Assembly (NCBI GenBank): GCA_037576195.1
Contig: CM075101.1
Location: forward strand, 49,476,001-49,540,000
Origin: Phytoseiulus persimilis
Lineage: Eukaryota; Arthropoda; Arachnida; Mesostigmata; Phytoseiidae
Reading direction: 5' to 3'
Length of the DNA: 64,000 bases
The position numbers and the translations under genes are program-made. Every line of letters starts with the position of its first letter. The stretch's first letter is position 1. Positions 28,070 through 56,100 of the stretch are shown piece after piece. The notes beneath the pieces were generated by a model. The model saw only the letters and a list, made by a program, of their open reading frames with translations, was not told the origin of the DNA and made no database searches.

Positions 28070-31000
28070 ATGTCCTCAAGGAAGAAGAGTGGGAGGCCTC
28101 TGAGGGATTCGAGAGAAGCCGTTACAAGGTTGAGGACCCGAACGGACGGAGGGACCGAGTCAATCCCCGATGTTTCGCCGTCGGAGGCGTTCGTCTCCTG
28201 CTGTTGCTGCCTCTCTCACGAAAATCGCGCTTCCTACGCCCAGGGAGAGCTCGGTGTTACGACACGGTGCTCAGTTCGGATTTGCGCTCCGGTGCCCGCA
28301 CTTTGTTGAGAAGCCATCCCAGAGACACCATGCTTGCTCTGGCTGTTGTTGAGTTGATTGTTTCTCACAGGCCTGCTCGTGTTCATCGTCCTTCTCTTCG
28401 TTATCGAGCTCCTGCCTGGAGGATCTTCGCCTGGTTATGGTCCGTTGATGAGGTAAATCTCCACCTCATCGGCGCTGAGTGTGTGCCTAATATATTCTCC
28501 CTCTACATTGATCCGGATCTCCTCCCCAGTCTGAGGGCTGCAGCTGTGATATGATGATGCATTTTCATGATGGATCGATGAAGGAGTTCCTTTTTCTAGG
28601 CGACATAAAGGGGCAGTCGGAAATCAAGCAGGAGACGAATACCTTCAACGAAGGACTTTTCCTGGAGGAGCAAAGCAAGCACCGCTCCTGGGACCGATTG
28701 ATCATCTGCTGGAATCTGGGTGAGCCTTCTCTCAGGATCAGGATAATGATGTCAAAACTCGTGACTCTTGAACTCAGGAGTTTGAGGAGGCCATGGAGCG
28801 GGAAATACGCGTGAGCGTGGGAGTGCTTCTATGGTTGGACAAACCATGTGTTGGGATCAACCTGCATCATGATTGAGGAAATCTCTCCGAGGGACAAACG
28901 TCTTATTGCTGTCGTGGATAAATTGTCAACGATGCTCGTTGAATTCACGTTCTCTCGAGGCGACCCCATCCGAAGTGAACTGCTCGGTACTACGAAAGTT
29001 GACCCGAACGATTGGAGATTTTCCCACAGTCCGTCGCGGTCTGATCTCTTCCGACGGATTGAGATTCCGGCACGGTTCATTTCTCTCCAGAATTGCGTTT
29101 CCTCGTTTCCAAAAAGAGCGTGAGGCTCATCAGGACCTGGAGGCGATATACCCCTCCACGTTACCAGGTGCGGAACTGACCAGGGGAAGAAACTCCCTAT
29201 CGGAAGAAACAATATTTCCAGATGTTTCACAGATCGCCGTGAGGAGAGCAAACCCATACGATTCTTCCTTCGTTCCCTCGTCTTACAGAACAAGAATTCA
29301 TACAATATGCTCGAGTGGTCGAAGGCCTTCGGGACCTGAACGATTTCCTGACGTCGTCCGAGCTATCTGATCTTTCTAGTGCGGATGTAGTCGCGCACTC
29401 GTTGAGGTACACCAGGTCATTAGAATTGGCTGCAGAGAAACTTGCCGGTCAGAGCACTCAACGCGCTCGGAGCATCATCACACGGCTTCGCGACAGTCTC
29501 CGGGACGCTATCTATAAAAACCAGAACCCCAGCGATTGTTCCGATGTCGAAGCAATCGGATGCAAAGTCGGGGGTAGCAAGGGGTTCGCGGCGGCTTTCG
29601 GTGAAATGACTCATTGTCTGGCGTCTGGCCTCATGCTGAATAAGACGGTTGTTTTCTACTTCTCAAAGTGGGCCTACGCGGGGGAAACTCTCTGGAATGA
29701 ACTCTTCGAACCGATCAGCAGCTGCGAAGCACATCAACTACGGAGGAGCGTCGACTGGAGTTATCCCAAAGGATGGTGGCTTGGTGAGTCTGGAATCTTC
29801 TTCCGTGAAGGTCGAGCGTCTGCACGCAAAACGCGTGTCGGCTTTGAAGCAAGAATCCGTTGAACAGGGTTAATCGAGCGCTCCGTCCATCCCTCGAATT
29901 CCAGAGAGGAAAGACATGACACGTCTCCCTGACTTGATCGCTGGAGATCTGATCTCCTTCCACGGAGATCCTCTGGGTTGGTTTCACGGCCAGCTAGCAT
30001 CGTATATTCTTCGGCCATCGAGGAAGTTCCAGATTGAGCTGGATCGTCGGGTTCGAGCTGTGGATGAGAACCGTGATTACGTCGGGTTCGTGGCCATCCA
30101 TCGGCGAATGTCTTCAGTCTGTTGAACGAAATAGGTATCGGAATAGGTTCCTCGTCCAACCATGAGTCCTGCGACGCGCCATGTTTCCTCCGCACACAGG
30201 CTCCACATTCGGCGGACCGACAAAGGCAGCGAGGCTCTCTTGCGAGACACGAAATTCTATATGAGATACGTGGAAGAGTATTTCCGTAGGGAAACCCTGC
30301 GTAGGGAAATCCAGTCGAAAAAGGTTTATGTAGCAACAGACGATCCCGCAGCCGTGGAAGAGCTCAGGCTTAGGTGAGTACGCTCAGAGACTCCGCCTCT
30401 CCAGCCCGAGATTCACTGACTCAGGGAATAGACTTCGTCCGATGAACGACGAGAGGTCGTCCCGAGGTCTTCAAAGATTCAGTCAGGCGCTCTGATCAGC
30501 TCTCCGCGTCGTTGGTTGCAGCTATCCGAATTTCGAGTTCTCTTCCAATTCTGAAGCCATCGAGCAAGCGAACGACGTTAACTTCAGGACTTCCGATGGG
30601 GCTCTGAGGAACGTCATGATCGACTTCTTTGTGTTGTCTCGATCTCAATTCTTCGCCTGTGCACTGTCGTCAGGGGTGAGTGGTGGGCCGAGGTTTTTTC
30701 TGGCCGGGCCTGGCTAATTCCAGAGATAGAACTCGATCCCCATATGGGAGCAGCAGAGAAATGAGCGAAACGCCAGCACGGAATATAATGTCGATGTGAA
30801 TGTATGATCCGAACAGTTTGCGCGCGTGGCGTACAGTCTCATGCACTACGAGTACTTCGACGCGTGGAAAAGGATTGGATCCCTGGACGTCCCTTTCTAC
30901 TACGCCTACGCGTTCCTACCTGAAAGACTTCCTGTGGAGCCCGTCGAGGACCTCGTCTTGCCCAACGAAGTTGGTTTCAGCCAGTGAGTTGGAATGCATA

Positions 31001-32177: not shown

Positions 32178-33384
32178 CCAGAAGATGTATTGGGTGCGTG
32201 CAAAAGTTCTGAGCGCTAAACTTTGACAGCTCATAACTCCGCTCCCAGAAGACGCAGAAAGATCACAAAAGACTCGAGAAACACGGAATTCGATCCCGGC
32301 GAAACGAAGATAATGACCCCCTGTTTTCTCTTCGGAATCATAGAGTTCGTCGAAATTTAAGCTGTTTCAAAAAAAAATTGAGCCATTCGGCCGCTGGCAA
32401 GCGGAGATATCGGCCTCGGAAGTTTCCATTTTCAGCCCTCTCGATCAATGTTGAGTGGATAGGGAAAATATGGGCCTTCTCAAAAAAGCATACATTAGCT
32501 CAACGCTAAGACTAAATTTCAGAAGCATGCCTTAGCCTGAGACTAAATTCCACAAGCATACATTAGCTCAAGGCTAAGACTAAATTCCAGAAGCATGCCT
32601 TAGCCTAAGACTAAATTCCACAAGCATACATTAGCTCAAGGCTGAGACTAAATTTAAAGAGAGTCAATTAGCTCGAGGATTTTATTCATCATGCTCCTTC
32701 TTCACCCAAAGACGAGCCAATTTGAGATGCCGCATAGCACATCTCATAACCGGGCTCAGAGCTTCGAAAACATGTCATCGGATCCAATTTTCGGCTCTCC
32801 ACCCATAGCTTCGAATTGCGGGCTGGAATCACAAACTTCAGTTCCACTGACACGATTTTCGCTGGGAACTCTTGGACAGCCTGAAACTGGATCATATGAC
32901 ACGTTTTTGAAACTTTGAGCCCGGCTATGAGATGTGCTATGCAATATCTCCAAACTGGCTCGTTTTTTATGGGAGATGGAGCATTTTAGGAAAATACCCA
33001 TATTTTTCCTATGCACTCAACATAGATCGAGAGGGCTAAAAATCGGAACTTCCGGGGACGATCTCTCCGCTCAAGCGGCCGAATCGCTCCATTTTCCTTT
33101 TCGAACAGCTTTATTTTCGACGACCTTCATGATTCCGAAAAAAAACAGGGGGTCATAACCTTAGTTCCGCCGGAATCGGAAAATCGCGATTTTTCGATTC
33201 TCGACCCTTTCAGAAAAAGGCGTTAGCAGACCCTTCGTTGGATCGGAATCGGAGAGCATCCGAAAGTTGACTAAACTTCGCGTATTTTGAGAATTTCATT
33301 ATCTTCCTGCGACTTCTGGGAGCGACGTTATGAGCTGTCAAAGTTCAGCGCTCAGAACTTTTGCACGCAACCAATATCTTCTGG
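32178..33384. mobile_element. Foldback / MITE-type element with long inverted arms
   Basis: The left end CCAGAAGATGTATTGGGTGCGTGCAAAAG is matched in reverse at the right end (CTTTTGCACGCAACCAATATCTTCTGG). Pairing continues through GAGCGCTnAACTTTGACAG and then, with indels, to about 32,480 against about 32,980. A second, inner pair of arms (about 32,715-32,797 and 32,880-32,963) contains CATAGCACATCTCATA/TATGAGATGTGCTATG. No transposase ORF is present, so it is non-autonomous. Inside the arms the boundary reads TA-TTGG..CCAA-TA (32,188 and 33,376), as for a Tc1/mariner-type TA target, but the palindrome extends about 8 bp further out, so the true ends are uncertain. Confidence 0.8.
32485..32655. 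repeat. 68-bp tandem repeat inside the foldback element
   Basis: AGCATACATTAGCTC recurs at 32,487, 32,555 and 32,623 (exact 68-bp period), alternating with a shorter AGCATGCCTTAGCC half-unit; each half ends in GACTAAATT. About 2.5 copies. It sits in the left arm at a point where the right arm has no counterpart, so it is an expansion after the palindrome formed. Confidence 0.85.
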
Positions 33385-33768: not shown

Positions 33769-33774
33769 TTTATT
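33769..33774 (-). terminator. Polyadenylation signal AATAAA (H2A.X-like gene)
   Basis: TTTATT on + reads AATAAA on the minus strand, about 185 nt downstream of the histone stop. A polyadenylated rather than stem-loop 3' end is usual for replication-independent histone variants. Confidence 0.55.
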
Positions 33775-33958: not shown

Positions 33959-34549
33959 TCAAAAGTCCTGGGAGGCCGCTTGTGGCCCTTCGCCAGCCTC
34001 GCTCGGTTCGTTGTCTCCAGATTCCGACGCTTCGATCTGCTTGACCTTCTTTTTAGACGACTTTGGCAGCAGCTGAGGCAGTATGTTTGGCCTGACACCC
34101 GCGTTGGGGAAAGTGACGTTCCCAAGCAGTTTGCTAAGCTCTTCGTCGTCTTTCACAGCCGTCATGATGTGTCTAGGCATCACTCGGAGCTTACTATTGG
34201 CCCTCGTGAAACCTACGGCGATGTCGAAGACTTCGATGATGATGTACTCGAGAACCGCGGCGAGGTACACGGCGGCACCCGATCCGATCCTATCGGCAAA
34301 CTTCCCTTTCTTAAGCAGCCGTGAGATACGACCCACGGGCATCACCAAACCGGCCCTTGAATGTGGAGAAGATTCCGTTCAGAGTTCGAGCGGCCCAGAT
34401 CGATGCCCAGCTGATGAATAATCGCTTGAGCAATGCAGCAGGGTCAGCTTTTAGCTCGATCGCCGAGATGACGAGTAGGAAATGCTGAGGATGCAGGAAA
34501 TAACTTACCTACTGGTTCGAGACCGTTTGGAGCTTCGTCCGTCCGCCAT
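33959..34549 (-). CDS. Divergent histone H2A variant with C-terminal SQDF (H2A.X type)
   Basis: Two exons on minus: 34549-34509 and 34355-33959 (438 nt, 145 aa). The 153-bp intron has a TAGGTAAG donor and CATTCAAG acceptor and joins AGT-AG/G to give SRAGL. Histone-fold landmarks are SRAGLVMPVGR, GSGAAVYLAAVLEY, MPRHIMTAVKDDEELSKLLG and GVRPNILPQLLPK. The acidic-patch residues are kept (LEY, IIIE, the VFD aspartate, DDEE). The core between LEY and MPRH (IIIEVFDIAVGFTRANSKLRV) is very unlike canonical H2A. The tail is long and acidic and ends exactly in S-Q-D-F, the SQ(E/D)-hydrophobic motif phosphorylated in DNA-damage signalling. The intron and polyA signal say replication-independent. It could also be a fast-evolving germline variant. 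Confidence 0.9.
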
Positions 34550-34903
34550 TATCAATAAATCGGAAGTTGACTGTTTGAAACGAGCGCAGCTCCGTGAACC
34601 GTTTCCGCTGCCGTTCTACGCGCGGGAGAGCACTGTGGACGGCTGGCGCGTATGAGCTTCAAGGACAGACGTGCATCGGGAGTGGATAGCGTGCAAACTT
34701 CGAGCCGATCTCTCCAAAAGAATCTCAGTTCGGTGGGAAGGAGTTTCCCTGATCTGCGGGAGCGCTCGTCGCGGGAGGATGAGAAGAACACACTGCAACA
34801 CTCCTATCACGATCGATGAAGGCATATTTAAATCCTTACTACGTATAATCGGCTCAGTCTATAAGTTTGTCAGTTTGTCCGCACTTTTTCTGGAAGATAT
34901 GGG

Positions 34904-35036
34904 GGTGGTTCCGGGACCAATCTCAACATACTCTTCCGAGTCTGGGGAGGTGATTCCTGGGCCGATCTGTTCATACTTTTCAAAACCTGGAGGGGTGATT
35001 ACAGGACCAATCAGACCATACTTCTTTAAACCATAA
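34904..35036. repeat. 45-bp tandem repeat, three units
   Basis: GGTGNTTCCGGG/GGTGATTCCTGG/GGTGATTACAGG begin at 34,904, 34,949 and 34,994, exactly 45 bp apart, each followed by GACCAATC..CATACT. Being a multiple of three, it reads through as a VxPGPIxxYF-type peptide repeat in one frame, but nothing else supports coding. Confidence 0.8.
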
Positions 35037-50172: not shown

Positions 50173-53100
50173 ATGGGATCTGAATCGTGGAGCACGGGTG
50201 CGTGACAGTAACCATCACGCCGTGTTCTCGACTGGGACATGATCCAAGAATGACTCCCAGTGTTTACTCGAGTAATTCAACGGCGGTCGCGGAGGGAGAA
50301 TATTTCATTATCCATTCCACGAGGCGCGCGTTCTTGCAAGGCCTCACCACGACCTTGCGACGTCTTCTCGAGTACAAAAATACCCAAACACGTCATATTC
50401 AGATATTCCGTTGATACATGATCGGCCGCGGAGTCTCGGCTGTCTCGAGCTCTCCTGTCACGTCGCGAGCATATCGGAGAGCGCACGGAGAGGAATCTCA
50501 AAGCTGAATACCTGACAATAGCAGAAGCTGAGGAGCATCGACGGTCCAAAGCCGATGCTTAGTTGAGCTCCATTGAATCGAGATGCGTTCGAGGAGCCGA
50601 TCCAGCTCGCCAGGCAAGCTCTGGTATGTGCTGGAGCGAACCGAGATAATGAGAAGCATTGTCGGGGGGCTCAGACGCGATACAGCATGATTTACATCTG
50701 ATAGAGGGAGTCCGTCATGAGGACTCGCCGAGAAATCTTGAATTTGGAATATTTCCAACAATCGAGGCACAGATGCGATTTTTGAGCCGACGGCGAATCG
50801 GATCATGTCGCCCGGGTAATCATCGTTAAACGTCAGCGTGAGCTCAGAGTGCCGTTGATTCCCGAAAAACACCCAAACTTTTTTCCTGAACAGCTCAATC
50901 AACGAATTCTCCCGCCCTTCGTGGACTGGGAACTCATGACAATGATTAGCAAAACGAGCGACGATCATAACGCCTCATGTTTTTATGTTTCAGCGGTCTG
51001 CATGATCACTCTTGTGTCGGCAGTTTATGTGTTCATCACGTTACCGATGCAAGGCATGTACCGAATCCATTCGTTATCTTCAGCCGAAAGGGACGAACTG
51101 GACCCATACGCTCTCGTGGATGACGACAGAGTGCATCCCCACGGCGCACGGTATGATCCATTGTTCCTCCAAAGTGCACTCCTCTCGACTGCACAAGACA
51201 CTCGGGCGGACATCAGAGCTCAGACTATCATCAATCATAACTAAGCGTTCTCGAATGAAACACAGTTTCGCATGTTGTTCGCAGAATTCTCTCCCTGTAG
51301 ACGTGATGCAGTCGAGCGACGCATGCAGTCTTCGAGACGCATTCACGGCCACAGTCGGACTATGTTTCCTATCGGATTAGGCGAGTGGAGCGAATAGTTG
51401 TTCCCGAGCTCTGCTCGCTCCGCTGTTCCGATGTGTCTCCAGAACGTTCCGATCACAATACGGAAAGAGCTCTTCCTCGGGGTTTGGCATCGAACCAAGT
51501 AATTTGATCAATTTGGAAGAACCTTCACAAGCATGGCATGGCTCTTCGGCCGGAAAAGCGGTAGTCGGGCGGTTGGTCAACTTCTGTCGGATGCGAAGAC
51601 AGAAGAACTCGCCTTCATCCTGAGCGAATACGAGTTTGTAAGAACTTCTCGTTCCAGCTCCGGTTTGATGGATTCGCGCCATTCGAACCTTACAATCGCG
51701 AGCTCCATCTCGGCGAAACATGCAGCGCTTAGCTACAGCTAATTTTATGACCACTCAAGGTATATCCGACGCGGCCTACTCGATTCAGTATGCAGCCCTG
51801 TGTTTGGAAGCGGTGGTGCGTCGAGCGTCCACCGCTTCTTTTGCGATTGAATTTAAGTGAGTGAATCATCTGCCAGCTGCGAAGGGACCTCACGCAAATA
51901 GTGTGAAATTTGAGCCGGTGGATCATGCGCAGAATATTTGGAACGCCTCGAAGCAGACAGGAGACCAGCCCGTGCGCCCTCCCTCGGTGATCATGCGCGA
52001 AGGATTCAATACGCGAATTGAGATTATAAGGAAGAATCACGCGGCTCGCGGATTGCGAAAAATCGATTTCTGTGATGAAATCATCGCTATATAGTCTCTG
52101 CATCTCCTCCATTCACGCATAGGCGCTCATTTTCTGAGGACAGCCGTCTTGACACTCCAGGCAACTGATATTTGGGAAATCCGCGGCTTCGATCTGTGCG
52201 CTCTCAGCAGCTTTCCTCCAGAGCTCTTCTGTTTATTTGTCGATTCGAGTTGGGAGAACGTTTGGGAGCACTCAAGAGGGGGCTGTTTTCTGCATTTTCT
52301 CGCGCGGGAGTCGGAGGAAGAGCTCGACATTCCCCAATTCTGTGTTTCGAAGCAGCCTCTCAAGCCGCAAATAATTCACGGCCTATTCCGCCTAAATTTT
52401 TCCTGATCTCCGCACGCTGCGTTTTTCGAATTCCGACGCGAAGCGAACGAAAACCAGGCCTAGACGGTTGTGTTTTTTATGGTCTCCTTGCATCAAATTC
52501 GACACGTCTATCGCGATTTCAGGATTCGTGCTCCACGGTTACAAGCGCACTCGATTCCAAACGTCCACATTTGCGGTTTCGGCAACACACGGGCGACGAC
52601 GTCTGGTGGTCGCAGGAATCCTCGAGTTGAATGTGAACGCTCAAATTAGCGATATCCTGCTCTCACTGGGGACAAAGGACGCAATCGATCTCTTGAGCTC
52701 AAGCTGTCTCGCACGATTGAACACAAATTAGAATTCACCCTTCCAGGAACTCTTATGCTCTGGTCCAAGCTCAGCGATCGATTCTGAGGGAAAGGTTGAC
52801 CGCCACCGAAGACAGCGCAGACGGTGAAGAGATGGTGGACTCAACTACGATCAAAGGTAAATTCGATTCCATTTCAGCTGTTTTCGATCAAAGCAGGCTT
52901 TGAACAGATGTGACCGATCGCCTAGGACGTCATCAGGAGCCGGATCAGAGGACGAAAAGAGCTGGAGCAGAGCTGAACCCTAATGAAGGCTCTTGAAGTC
53001 CCCAGCCTTGGGAGGAACGACAGGAAGGAGATGCTATAGGTCTCAATCGTAGAAGTCTACCTGATTCGAACTAATTGCGCGGATGTCGTTTCCAGGCTAA

Positions 53101-56100
53101 TTTGGTCTGTTTTGTTCACAGAACAGGGCTTCTTTTCGTACGTCCGGCTGGTGCAGGGTCTGCGTGACCTCAATGACTTCTTGGCGGAGGCTTCTCGATC
53201 CAAGCAGCTTTCACAGGAAGCAATCATCGCTCACGCCTTACGCTATACACGATCCTTGGAGAAAGCAGCGGATCAGGTCGAAGAACAATGCACTCATCAC
53301 CGAGCGCGGGAATCTATAGCCCAGCTCAGCCAAAATGTGTGGGGAGCCCTAGAGCAGCTCCAGTTCCCGAAAAACTGCTCGGAAGCGCACGCTATTCTCT
53401 GTGATCTCACGAACCCCCACGGGTTCGCTTCCGGCATGGCTGACGTTCTTCACTGTCTCGTCAGGGGACTGCAACTCAATCGAACGGTCATTCTCCGAAC
53501 GACTGATTGGCATTACACCCGTGACCTCAAATGGAACCAGGTATTCGAGCCCTTGTCAGGATGCAAGGAGGACCAAGTGAAACAGCCGATAGAGAAAGGC
53601 TACCCCGAAACCTGGAATGTAGGTGAGTTACAAGTGCTGACCCCCAACGATTCCAATCAGGGTACTCTGAAGAAATTATTAACACAGATATCAGTTCTGC
53701 ATTCGGAACTCGAAAAGAGATCAAACCTCCGCTAACGTTGGGATTTTTGAAAGATGACTCGAGATGAAACGCATCTCTCACAATTCCGCGAGCCCTCACG
53801 GTGCCCGATTCTACTCTCCTATGTTCGAGCTATGGCACTGCCCGTATCTAGAACACCGGAACAAAGCTGTGCTTCAGCCGAATTTATTCTCCTTCCTCTG
53901 AAAAGCTTCACTCTTTCGCTTCGAGAGTTTTTGCCTCTCGCAGAATACTTGAGAGCTCGTAACGCTCACTTTTCATTCTGGGAGCTGAAGCAGAGTCGAC
54001 TCGTTAATAATTCCGTTGGCCGGTAAATCCGATCCAGGGATCTGGAGGAGCTTTCGTCAGTTGTGGAGCAGCTCCGTTAGATAATTCAACTAAACGACTC
54101 GAATGCAGGGTGAAATGAGATTTGAATCAAGGATTCACAGACAGCCTCATACGCTTTGACGTTCGTATGTCAACCCACTGCATCGACCATCCCAGCTCTC
54201 CCTCAGACAGCACGACCTGTCTGAAGGACGGTCCATGAGATGCGGGCCTTTGGGGCGTGAGATTTCGACTCGCGTAATTGAGAGCGATCGGGAGAGAGCC
54301 ACGTGTTGTGAGCTCGTCGCTGGAGTTGATGCACAGAAGAATACTTCGCGAACTCTCTGCTTGACCCGAGATTCCCCTCGAACGGAACTCCTGTGTGTTT
54401 CGACTCTCAAGGGCGACGCGGGTATTTCAGGCGACGAGGGCTTTGTTGGTTCAGAGCTGAGTTCACAGGTATGGGAAGATGTGGAAGGCGGATCGGAGCG
54501 TAGTTTCCAGTTGACGTCCGGACTCGTTGCGGTTTTTGTAGTCGACCTGCGATTTTGTCTTTGTACTACGACAACGGTTCCCTTCCCAAGACTGCGACTC
54601 GCCTCCACGAGACGGTTTGCGCCGGCACTCCGAAAAGCGGATGAGGAGCTTCTCAAATGTACGATTTTGCAGAACGAAGACATATGGCTCGACTGCCGAA
54701 CGTCATAGCGCAGGATTTGGTGGCTTTCCACGGCGATCCGTACGCGTGGTTCCACGGAGAATTGATGTCTTACGCACTCAGACCAACGAAGGGCTTCGAG
54801 AAAGAGGTCGAACGACATATCCGCTCGATGTTCCCCGACGACAACTACATTGCGTGAGTTCCCTTGAAGACTCTCAACCACGTTTCAAGAACACCGGAAT
54901 GTCGGTTGTTCAAATATATGACGCGGCAGAACGATTGGCACTTTTTGGACGTAACTTGACTCTTCCTCAGTATGCACATCCGGCGGAGCGACAAGAACTA
55001 TGAAGCAAACTTCCGTGATCTGGACCTATACATGCGTTATGCGGAGGAATATTTCAGAAGGGAGGCGTTGCGCACAAGTGTCAGCGTGAAACGCGTCTTC
55101 GTGGCAACCGACGACGTTGGCGTCGTTGAAACCTTGCGTAGGAGGTGAGACTCAACAGCTGCGAGGAATCAGTGTTTCAAGTTCGAGAGGTTAAAACTAC
55201 AGCCTTCAAGTTTGGGTGTTTCTCCGGAATTATACCCTCATAGCACTGAATCAATCTTCGGTGATGGATGGAATAATTTCGAAAAATCACCCAAACTACC
55301 AGGCCCTGGTTGTAACTGCGCTGACGACGTCGCTGAGCAGAGGACTATTTCGCCGCTGAATCATTCAAGCAGGGGAGCACGCTGACAGAATGTAGCTTGG
55401 ATACAGCAGGGGAGTCTGCCCGTTTCTACAATAAGATTTCTGTGTCCCTCGACAGCTACCCAACCTTCGAGTTTTTCTCAAACCCCAAAGCTGCCAGAGA
55501 AGCTTCTAAACTGGGGACGAGGGATTCGAAAGAGGCTTTCAAGAACGTCTTATTGGATCTCCACACGCTTTCTAGATCTCAGCACCTGATTTGCACGATG
55601 TCCTCCGGGGTAAGCTGACCTTGCGCTCAATTAGTGGGAATATTCCTTGGAAGCGTTCGTTCGTTGCTCCGCTGAACCGAGAACCCGGACGTCTGAATCA
55701 CTGATCGTCGCTGTTCTGGGATAATCGTAATAGCGGTCGTTGCGACCATTCGTTCGAGCACGATCGCTATCTGGATGATGAGGAGGAGATCGTTGACTTG
55801 GATTCGAACGTTCGGAGCCTTGATACCAAGATGACTCCTCTCCTTGTTAGGATTGAGAGAATGATCGCGCGATTTTGTTACAGTTCAGTCGTGTGGCTTA
55901 CGAGCTGATGCAGCACCGATACTTCGACGCCTGGCGGCGCATGTCCTCGTTAGACATCGACTACATCTACGCTTACGCTTTCTTCCCGGAGCGGTTGCCG
56001 TTTGAACCCGCCGATGGTTTGGTCTTGCCCAAGGAGGTGACGGCCTCTCGGTGAGTAGCGGAGATTAGAAGGATGTTATCCCAATAGTGACCCCAACCCA

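Follow-up and report, generated by a model that had tools for sequence, protein, structure and literature searches.

A strongly diverged H2A.X-type histone gene ending in SQDF in the genome of Phytoseiulus persimilis

An intron-containing H2A-family gene on contig C1

The window analysed here, a stretch of 64,000 nucleotides of the Phytoseiulus persimilis genome (C1:49476001-49540000, from a 181-Mb genome in 127 contigs), carries on its minus strand a gene encoding an H2A-family histone that ends in SQDF. The gene runs from 34549 to 33959, its exact start-to-stop span, and comprises two exons with 145 codons and a stop. With a start context of GATAATGG, exon 1 (34509..34549, 41 nt) codes MADGRSSKRSRTS and the first two bases of the residue-20 codon before the donor GTAAGT, and the 153-nt GT-AG intron (34356..34508, GTAAGT...TTCAAG) interrupts that codon in phase 2 by human H2A numbering. 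Exon 2 (33959..34355) encodes the remaining histone fold, the docking region, a 33-residue C-terminal tail and the stop, and includes the terminal SQDF, a candidate PIKK phosphorylation motif, at 33962..33973.

The protein matched the Pfam families Histone (PF00125, 33.7 bits against a cut-off of 26.4) and Histone_H2A_C (PF16211, 45.6 bits against 20), so that both the histone fold and the H2A C-terminal domain of a core histone H2A are present; the related CBFD_NFYB_HMF family also scored above its cut-off (23.2 bits against 21.4), and the best 60 of 210 matches in the PDB were H2A chains. Of the 3,039 places in the window where a reading frame of at least 10 codons ends (six frames), one has SQ(D/E) followed by a hydrophobic residue, and that is this gene, where SQDF directly precedes the stop. 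In the available part of PMC3380720 an H2A.X is defined by an SQ(E/D)-hydrophobic motif at the extreme C-terminus of an H2A. A preliminary description of the locus as an intron-containing and strongly diverged H2A.X-type histone is borne out.

Three other variant classes were considered and rejected. An H2A.Z is ruled out by alignment, as the H2A.Z insertion in L1 and the one-residue deletion before the docking region are both missing. Drosophila H2Av, a non-standard carrier of an SQ end on an H2A.Z backbone, is unlike the window protein in the same two respects. A macroH2A is ruled out by an end 33 residues past LLPK and a Pfam scan without a macro domain, and a short H2A.B variant by a complete docking region and an acidic patch with five of six residues kept.

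Gene anatomy and the other H2A genes of the genome

A genome search with the exon-2 product, in which the best candidates were scored and copy counts are lower bounds, returned 27 matches: the window gene, at least 21 full-length canonical or near-canonical copies, one conventional H2A.X, one H2A.Z whose frame ends in GPKAP, one other divergent frame, and two matches to one broken copy. The conventional H2A.X lies on contig C2 (C2:31332373-31332678, seen in loci L026 and L036), encodes 133 amino acids ending in GKASQDF and has its coding part split once, by a 321-nt intron. The second, conventional H2A.X for which the preliminary description proposed looking was therefore found, and of its statement that the H2A.X is single-copy there remains that the diverged gene itself occurred once in the search.

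The 3' ends of these genes differ. When a perfect 6-bp stem with a 4-nt loop was taken as the rule, 19 of 21 canonical H2A copies had such a stem-loop 24-31 nt past the stop, with one near match and one copy having none, and no such structure occurred within 250 nt past the stop of either SQDF gene. A search with a stem-loop consensus found it in 11 of the 21 canonical copies, and Rfam at its gathering threshold found none in five loci, a result unable to show absence because the canonical control L015 was also negative. An AATAAA polyadenylation-type signal follows the stop by 184 nt in the window gene (33769..33774, minus strand) and by 194 nt in the conventional H2A.X, compared with one of 21 canonical copies having it within 400 nt; this signal is the evidence for the earlier description of the gene as polyadenylated. 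Among the 80 histone-fold matches listed, the nearest on the same contig was more than 7 Mb away. With an intron, no 3' stem-loop, a polyadenylation signal and a position outside histone clusters, the window gene has, in its sequence features, the anatomy of a replacement (replication-independent) histone.

In the surroundings of the gene, FUT8 alpha-1,6-fucosyltransferase domain frames lie on either side at 29243-29860 (+) and 53040-53732 (+), about 23 kb apart, and short tandem repeats flank it at 32486-32655 and 34902-35023 (units of 68 and 45 bases).

Several further histone frames were observed elsewhere in the genome. A divergent H2B-like frame (L036 5679-6239 (+), C2 ~31334.8 kb) is found some 2 kb away from the conventional H2A.X, oriented oppositely, and may be a partner of either H2A.X. 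The other very divergent H2A-like frame (L038 2126-2701 (-), C2 ~41923.7 kb) is open well before its first ATG and has no SQ end. A near-canonical H2A on another contig (L031, C4:23667263-23667586) has no 3' stem-loop, unlike the other copies, and the broken canonical copy (L034/L035/L041, C3 ~17569.7 kb) is interrupted by a frame change and has H3 pieces nearby in different frames. On contig C91 an H3-like frame of 348 aa (L043 1986-3032 (-)), whose long N-terminal part is rich in lysine and proline, is possibly the centromeric H3. The assembly gave no match for COX1.

Divergence of the histone core and tail

Over 98 ungapped core residues the window protein is identical to the conventional H2A.X of its own genome at 57 and to its own canonical H2A at 56, whereas the latter two share 89 of 98. 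For comparison with invariant sites we used a reference set of ten H2As with 49 invariant positions within residues 16-118, chosen from 15 aligned rows after removal of the window protein, the second divergent frame, H2A.B and two further sequences. At these positions the window protein has 15 changes, the other divergent frame 14 and human H2A.B 21. Ten of the 15 fall within residues 58-74 (34193..34243 by the exon map, minus strand), a stretch that comprises the C-terminal part of alpha-2 and the start of L2 and holds 12 of the invariant sites. The clustering has a hypergeometric P of 1.9e-5 for a region picked after the data were seen, and was matched in one of 5,000 permutations when all 17-residue stretches were scanned, and so the divergence of alpha-2 and L2 that had been noted earlier goes beyond chance. 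This region contacts H2B.

The acidic patch is present as previously described, with E56, E61, D90, E91 and E92 kept and E64 replaced by D. At K15 and K119, the ubiquitin sites used by canonical H2A, the window protein has R and S, respectively. Past LLPK it extends for 33 residues, compared with 14 in the conventional H2A.X; the first nine are basic (SSKKKVKQI) and the last 24 acidic, so that the 30-residue acidic tail of the preliminary description is right for its distal part. The two tails can be aligned solely at the ASQDF end, and the H2A.X terminus has been kept while the tail before it has been rewritten.

Shared ancestry with the conventional H2A.X

The window gene and the conventional H2A.X carry their intron at the identical site and phase, past the second base of the residue-20 codon, where the canonical H2A and H2A.Z frames are uninterrupted. 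The five terminal residues ASQDF are common to both proteins, neither gene has a detectable stem-loop, and AATAAA follows at a similar distance; the conventional H2A.X is unlike the window gene in its shorter protein and tail and its near-canonical core. Since intron position, phase and terminus are shared, common descent is the simplest account of the two SQDF genes, and the window gene is best read from these characters as an old, diverged H2A.X paralogue that would share with the conventional copy an intron-bearing, SQDF-ending ancestor. At the DNA level the 7-kb window locus and the 9-kb H2A.X locus resemble each other in one 215-bp stretch of exon 2 (66%), and because similarity is limited to this stretch the duplication cannot be dated from the flanks.

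Evidence for selection

The gene has no stop in frame, and its splice sites and start context are intact. Differences from the conventional H2A.X by codon position number 37, 22 and 55, and the proportions of nonsynonymous and synonymous differences (pN and pS) are 0.294 and 0.663. When the same 114 base changes were placed by drift in 2,000 simulated runs, 96% acquired a stop and every run had at least 50 amino-acid changes, compared with the 41 seen in the gene itself, a comparison that overstates constraint because part of the changes fell on the conserved H2A.X branch. In a three-branch codon model, making the window branch neutral worsened the fit by 2*delta lnL (lnL, log likelihood) of 7.5 with one choice of canonical copy and 5.5 with another. 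The clearest sign of selection is local: in the last 18 bases, which encode ASQDF and the stop, the two genes have four differences, all synonymous, and among 247,860 random four-change versions 157 kept ASQDF and the stop. Together, the synonymous changes, the open frame and the codon model disfavour, modestly, the pseudogene-like evolution that the preliminary description had raised, as does the drift simulation; a recent loss of function after long constraint would be compatible with these tests.

A proposed role

On the strength of these sequence characters the gene is likely to be a functional, diverged H2A.X paralogue of the 'F' form. The protein would pair with H2B and enter nucleosomes outside S phase, where the SQDF serine would be phosphorylated by an ATM/ATR-class kinase to give a signal of the gamma-H2A.X type, read via the phosphoserine and the free C-terminal F. 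The changes in alpha-2 and L2 may affect how stable the dimer is or which partner is chosen, and the replacement of K15 by R and of K119 by S would remove ubiquitin sites of canonical H2A. Chromatin could in this way be marked in a restricted setting, most plausibly the germline or early embryo; a germline or early-embryo setting is a tentative suggestion, favoured among special settings by analogy with Xenopus H2A.X-F and the male variants of Oikopleura. A far more specific version, in which a dedicated germline or early-embryo H2A.X forms structurally distinct nucleosomes that mark one chromosome set (e.g. the set due for silencing or elimination in one sex) by a phospho-signal that K15/K119 ubiquitination cannot follow, would be a long shot. 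The genome holds 15 matches to PI3/PI4-kinase domains, among which ATM and ATR are not told apart, and the 53BP1 Tudor family had no match in it, a result from which nothing follows as control genomes were equally negative.

An H2A.X has to function as part of normal nucleosomes, and here the conventional one stays near canonical H2A. A copy in which the terminal signal persists but the H2B-facing end of alpha-2 is rewritten would uncouple that signal from the nucleosome bearing it, and would serve as a natural experiment on the part that the H2A.X core plays in damage signalling.

Contrary evidence and alternative explanations

A number of results weigh against a functional paralogue of H2A.X. 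For 15 H2As, whose protein phylogeny contains four very long branches, the best tree placed the window protein beside an Arabidopsis H2A (H2A.6) with support of 68/81, and among 12 inner branches the two that were well supported both lay within H2A.Z. Eight groupings were considered for the approximately unbiased (AU) test, of which that with H2A.6 was already in the best tree and seven were tested, with one rejection. Grouping the window protein with its own H2A.X cost 4.84 lnL (p 0.066), much as grouping it with its own canonical H2A did (4.84 lnL, p 0.059), and grouping it with both its own and human H2A.X was rejected (p 0.010). Outside the tail it shares S16, I83 and V87 with its own H2A.X and S12, R20 and I30 with its own canonical H2A. 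In the codon model synonymous sites were saturated, and some omegas as well as branch lengths lay at their bounds. Two omegas gained over a common one by 2*delta lnL of 3.0 and 6.2, not a clear improvement, and with bounds reached and so small a difference it is not firmly shown that the window branch has the higher omega. An AlphaFold2 model from the single sequence was uninformative (mean predicted local distance difference test score, pLDDT, 43.5), and both gene and product are known here from DNA sequence alone.

The rejected grouping fits the para- or polyphyly of H2A.X given in the available part of PMC3380720. Groupings with macroH2A1 (p 0.50), H2A.B (p 0.48), H2A.Z (p 0.30) and the other divergent H2A (p 0.18) were not rejected either, and since the window branch is long (1.11 changes per column) and so many alternatives stand, the tree is uninformative for this gene. 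The phylogeny, to which the preliminary description had looked, does not place the gene: the best tree lacks a grouping with the genome's own H2A.X, and the AU test does not reject one.

The alternative that survives best is a functional and broadly expressed second H2A.X with no special role that simply evolves faster. It contradicts only the specialised part of the explanation given above, so that the confidence placed in the two overlaps, and we regard it as possible though rather unlikely: according to the excerpted text of PMC12153100, it is not unusual in some phyla for an animal to carry two H2A.X genes, and arthropods are said to have evolved divergent H2A.X-F proteins, but the annelid pair described there is 88.1% identical, compared with 57 of 98 core residues here, and the changes in the window protein cluster in one structural region. 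It is quite improbable that the gene is a fast-evolving variant of other origin, such as a gametic H2A, with a convergent SQDF; the tree gives no tie to H2A.X and leaves the macroH2A1, H2A.B, divergent-H2A and H2A.Z groupings open, but it is dominated by long branches, and intron position, phase and five terminal residues are held in common with the genome's own SQDF-ending H2A.X. A pseudogene or fully relaxed gene left open by chance, to which the long branch, the 15 changes at 49 invariant sites and the synonymous saturation that weakens the selection tests would point, is very improbable given the uninterrupted frame with intact splice sites and start context, the purely synonymous changes at ASQDF and the stop, an amino-acid change count below that of any simulated run and a disfavoured neutral branch.

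Comparison with known histone variants

Pattern searches gave 17 matches in a viral and 113 in a prokaryotic collection, none confirmed as relatives, and as such collections are not expected to hold animal histones this says nothing on lineage-specificity. A weak literature search turned up nothing on phytoseiid H2A.X, and, equally weakly, no mite histone was among the matches listed for Acari H2AX or histone-variant literature; the main text of PMC6902594, from the literature on predatory mite genomes and histones, does not contain 'H2A'. Within the same weak search we found no earlier description of an H2A.X end kept on so rewritten a core.

Species that carry a pair of H2A.X genes are already known, as are arthropods with divergent H2A.X-F proteins (both PMC12153100) and long-tailed diverged H2As without SQ ends (PMC2642717), as far as the available parts of these papers go. 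The closest likeness is to H2A.X-F proteins, which also have an SQ(E/D)F end and in some cases stand beside a second H2A.X (Xenopus H2A.X.3, PMC4191874; annelid h2ax2 and arthropod H2A.X-F, PMC12153100; each as excerpted). In the arthropods, according to the same part of PMC12153100, an H2A.X-Y gave rise to divergent H2A.X-F proteins, and the family of the window gene may already be among them, a likeness drawn from their description and not from a comparison of core divergence. In contrast to the annelid pair, 88.1% identical in the available text of PMC12153100, the two copies in the present genome both belong to the F type, and the core of one has changed heavily.

The bdelloid rotifer H2Abd variants are likewise diverged H2As with long tails, of 28-43 residues past LLPKK, and differ in that the available part of PMC2642717 gives them no SQ(E/D)-hydrophobic end. 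The male-specific H2Asq and H2At of Oikopleura are diverged, too, with changes in the H2B-contacting residues of L2 and alpha-2; in the excerpted text of PMC3156773 the SQ of H2Asq differs in lying in the docking domain rather than at the C-terminus, and Oikopleura is given as having no H2A.X. H2Asq and H2At provide a precedent for a gametic role.
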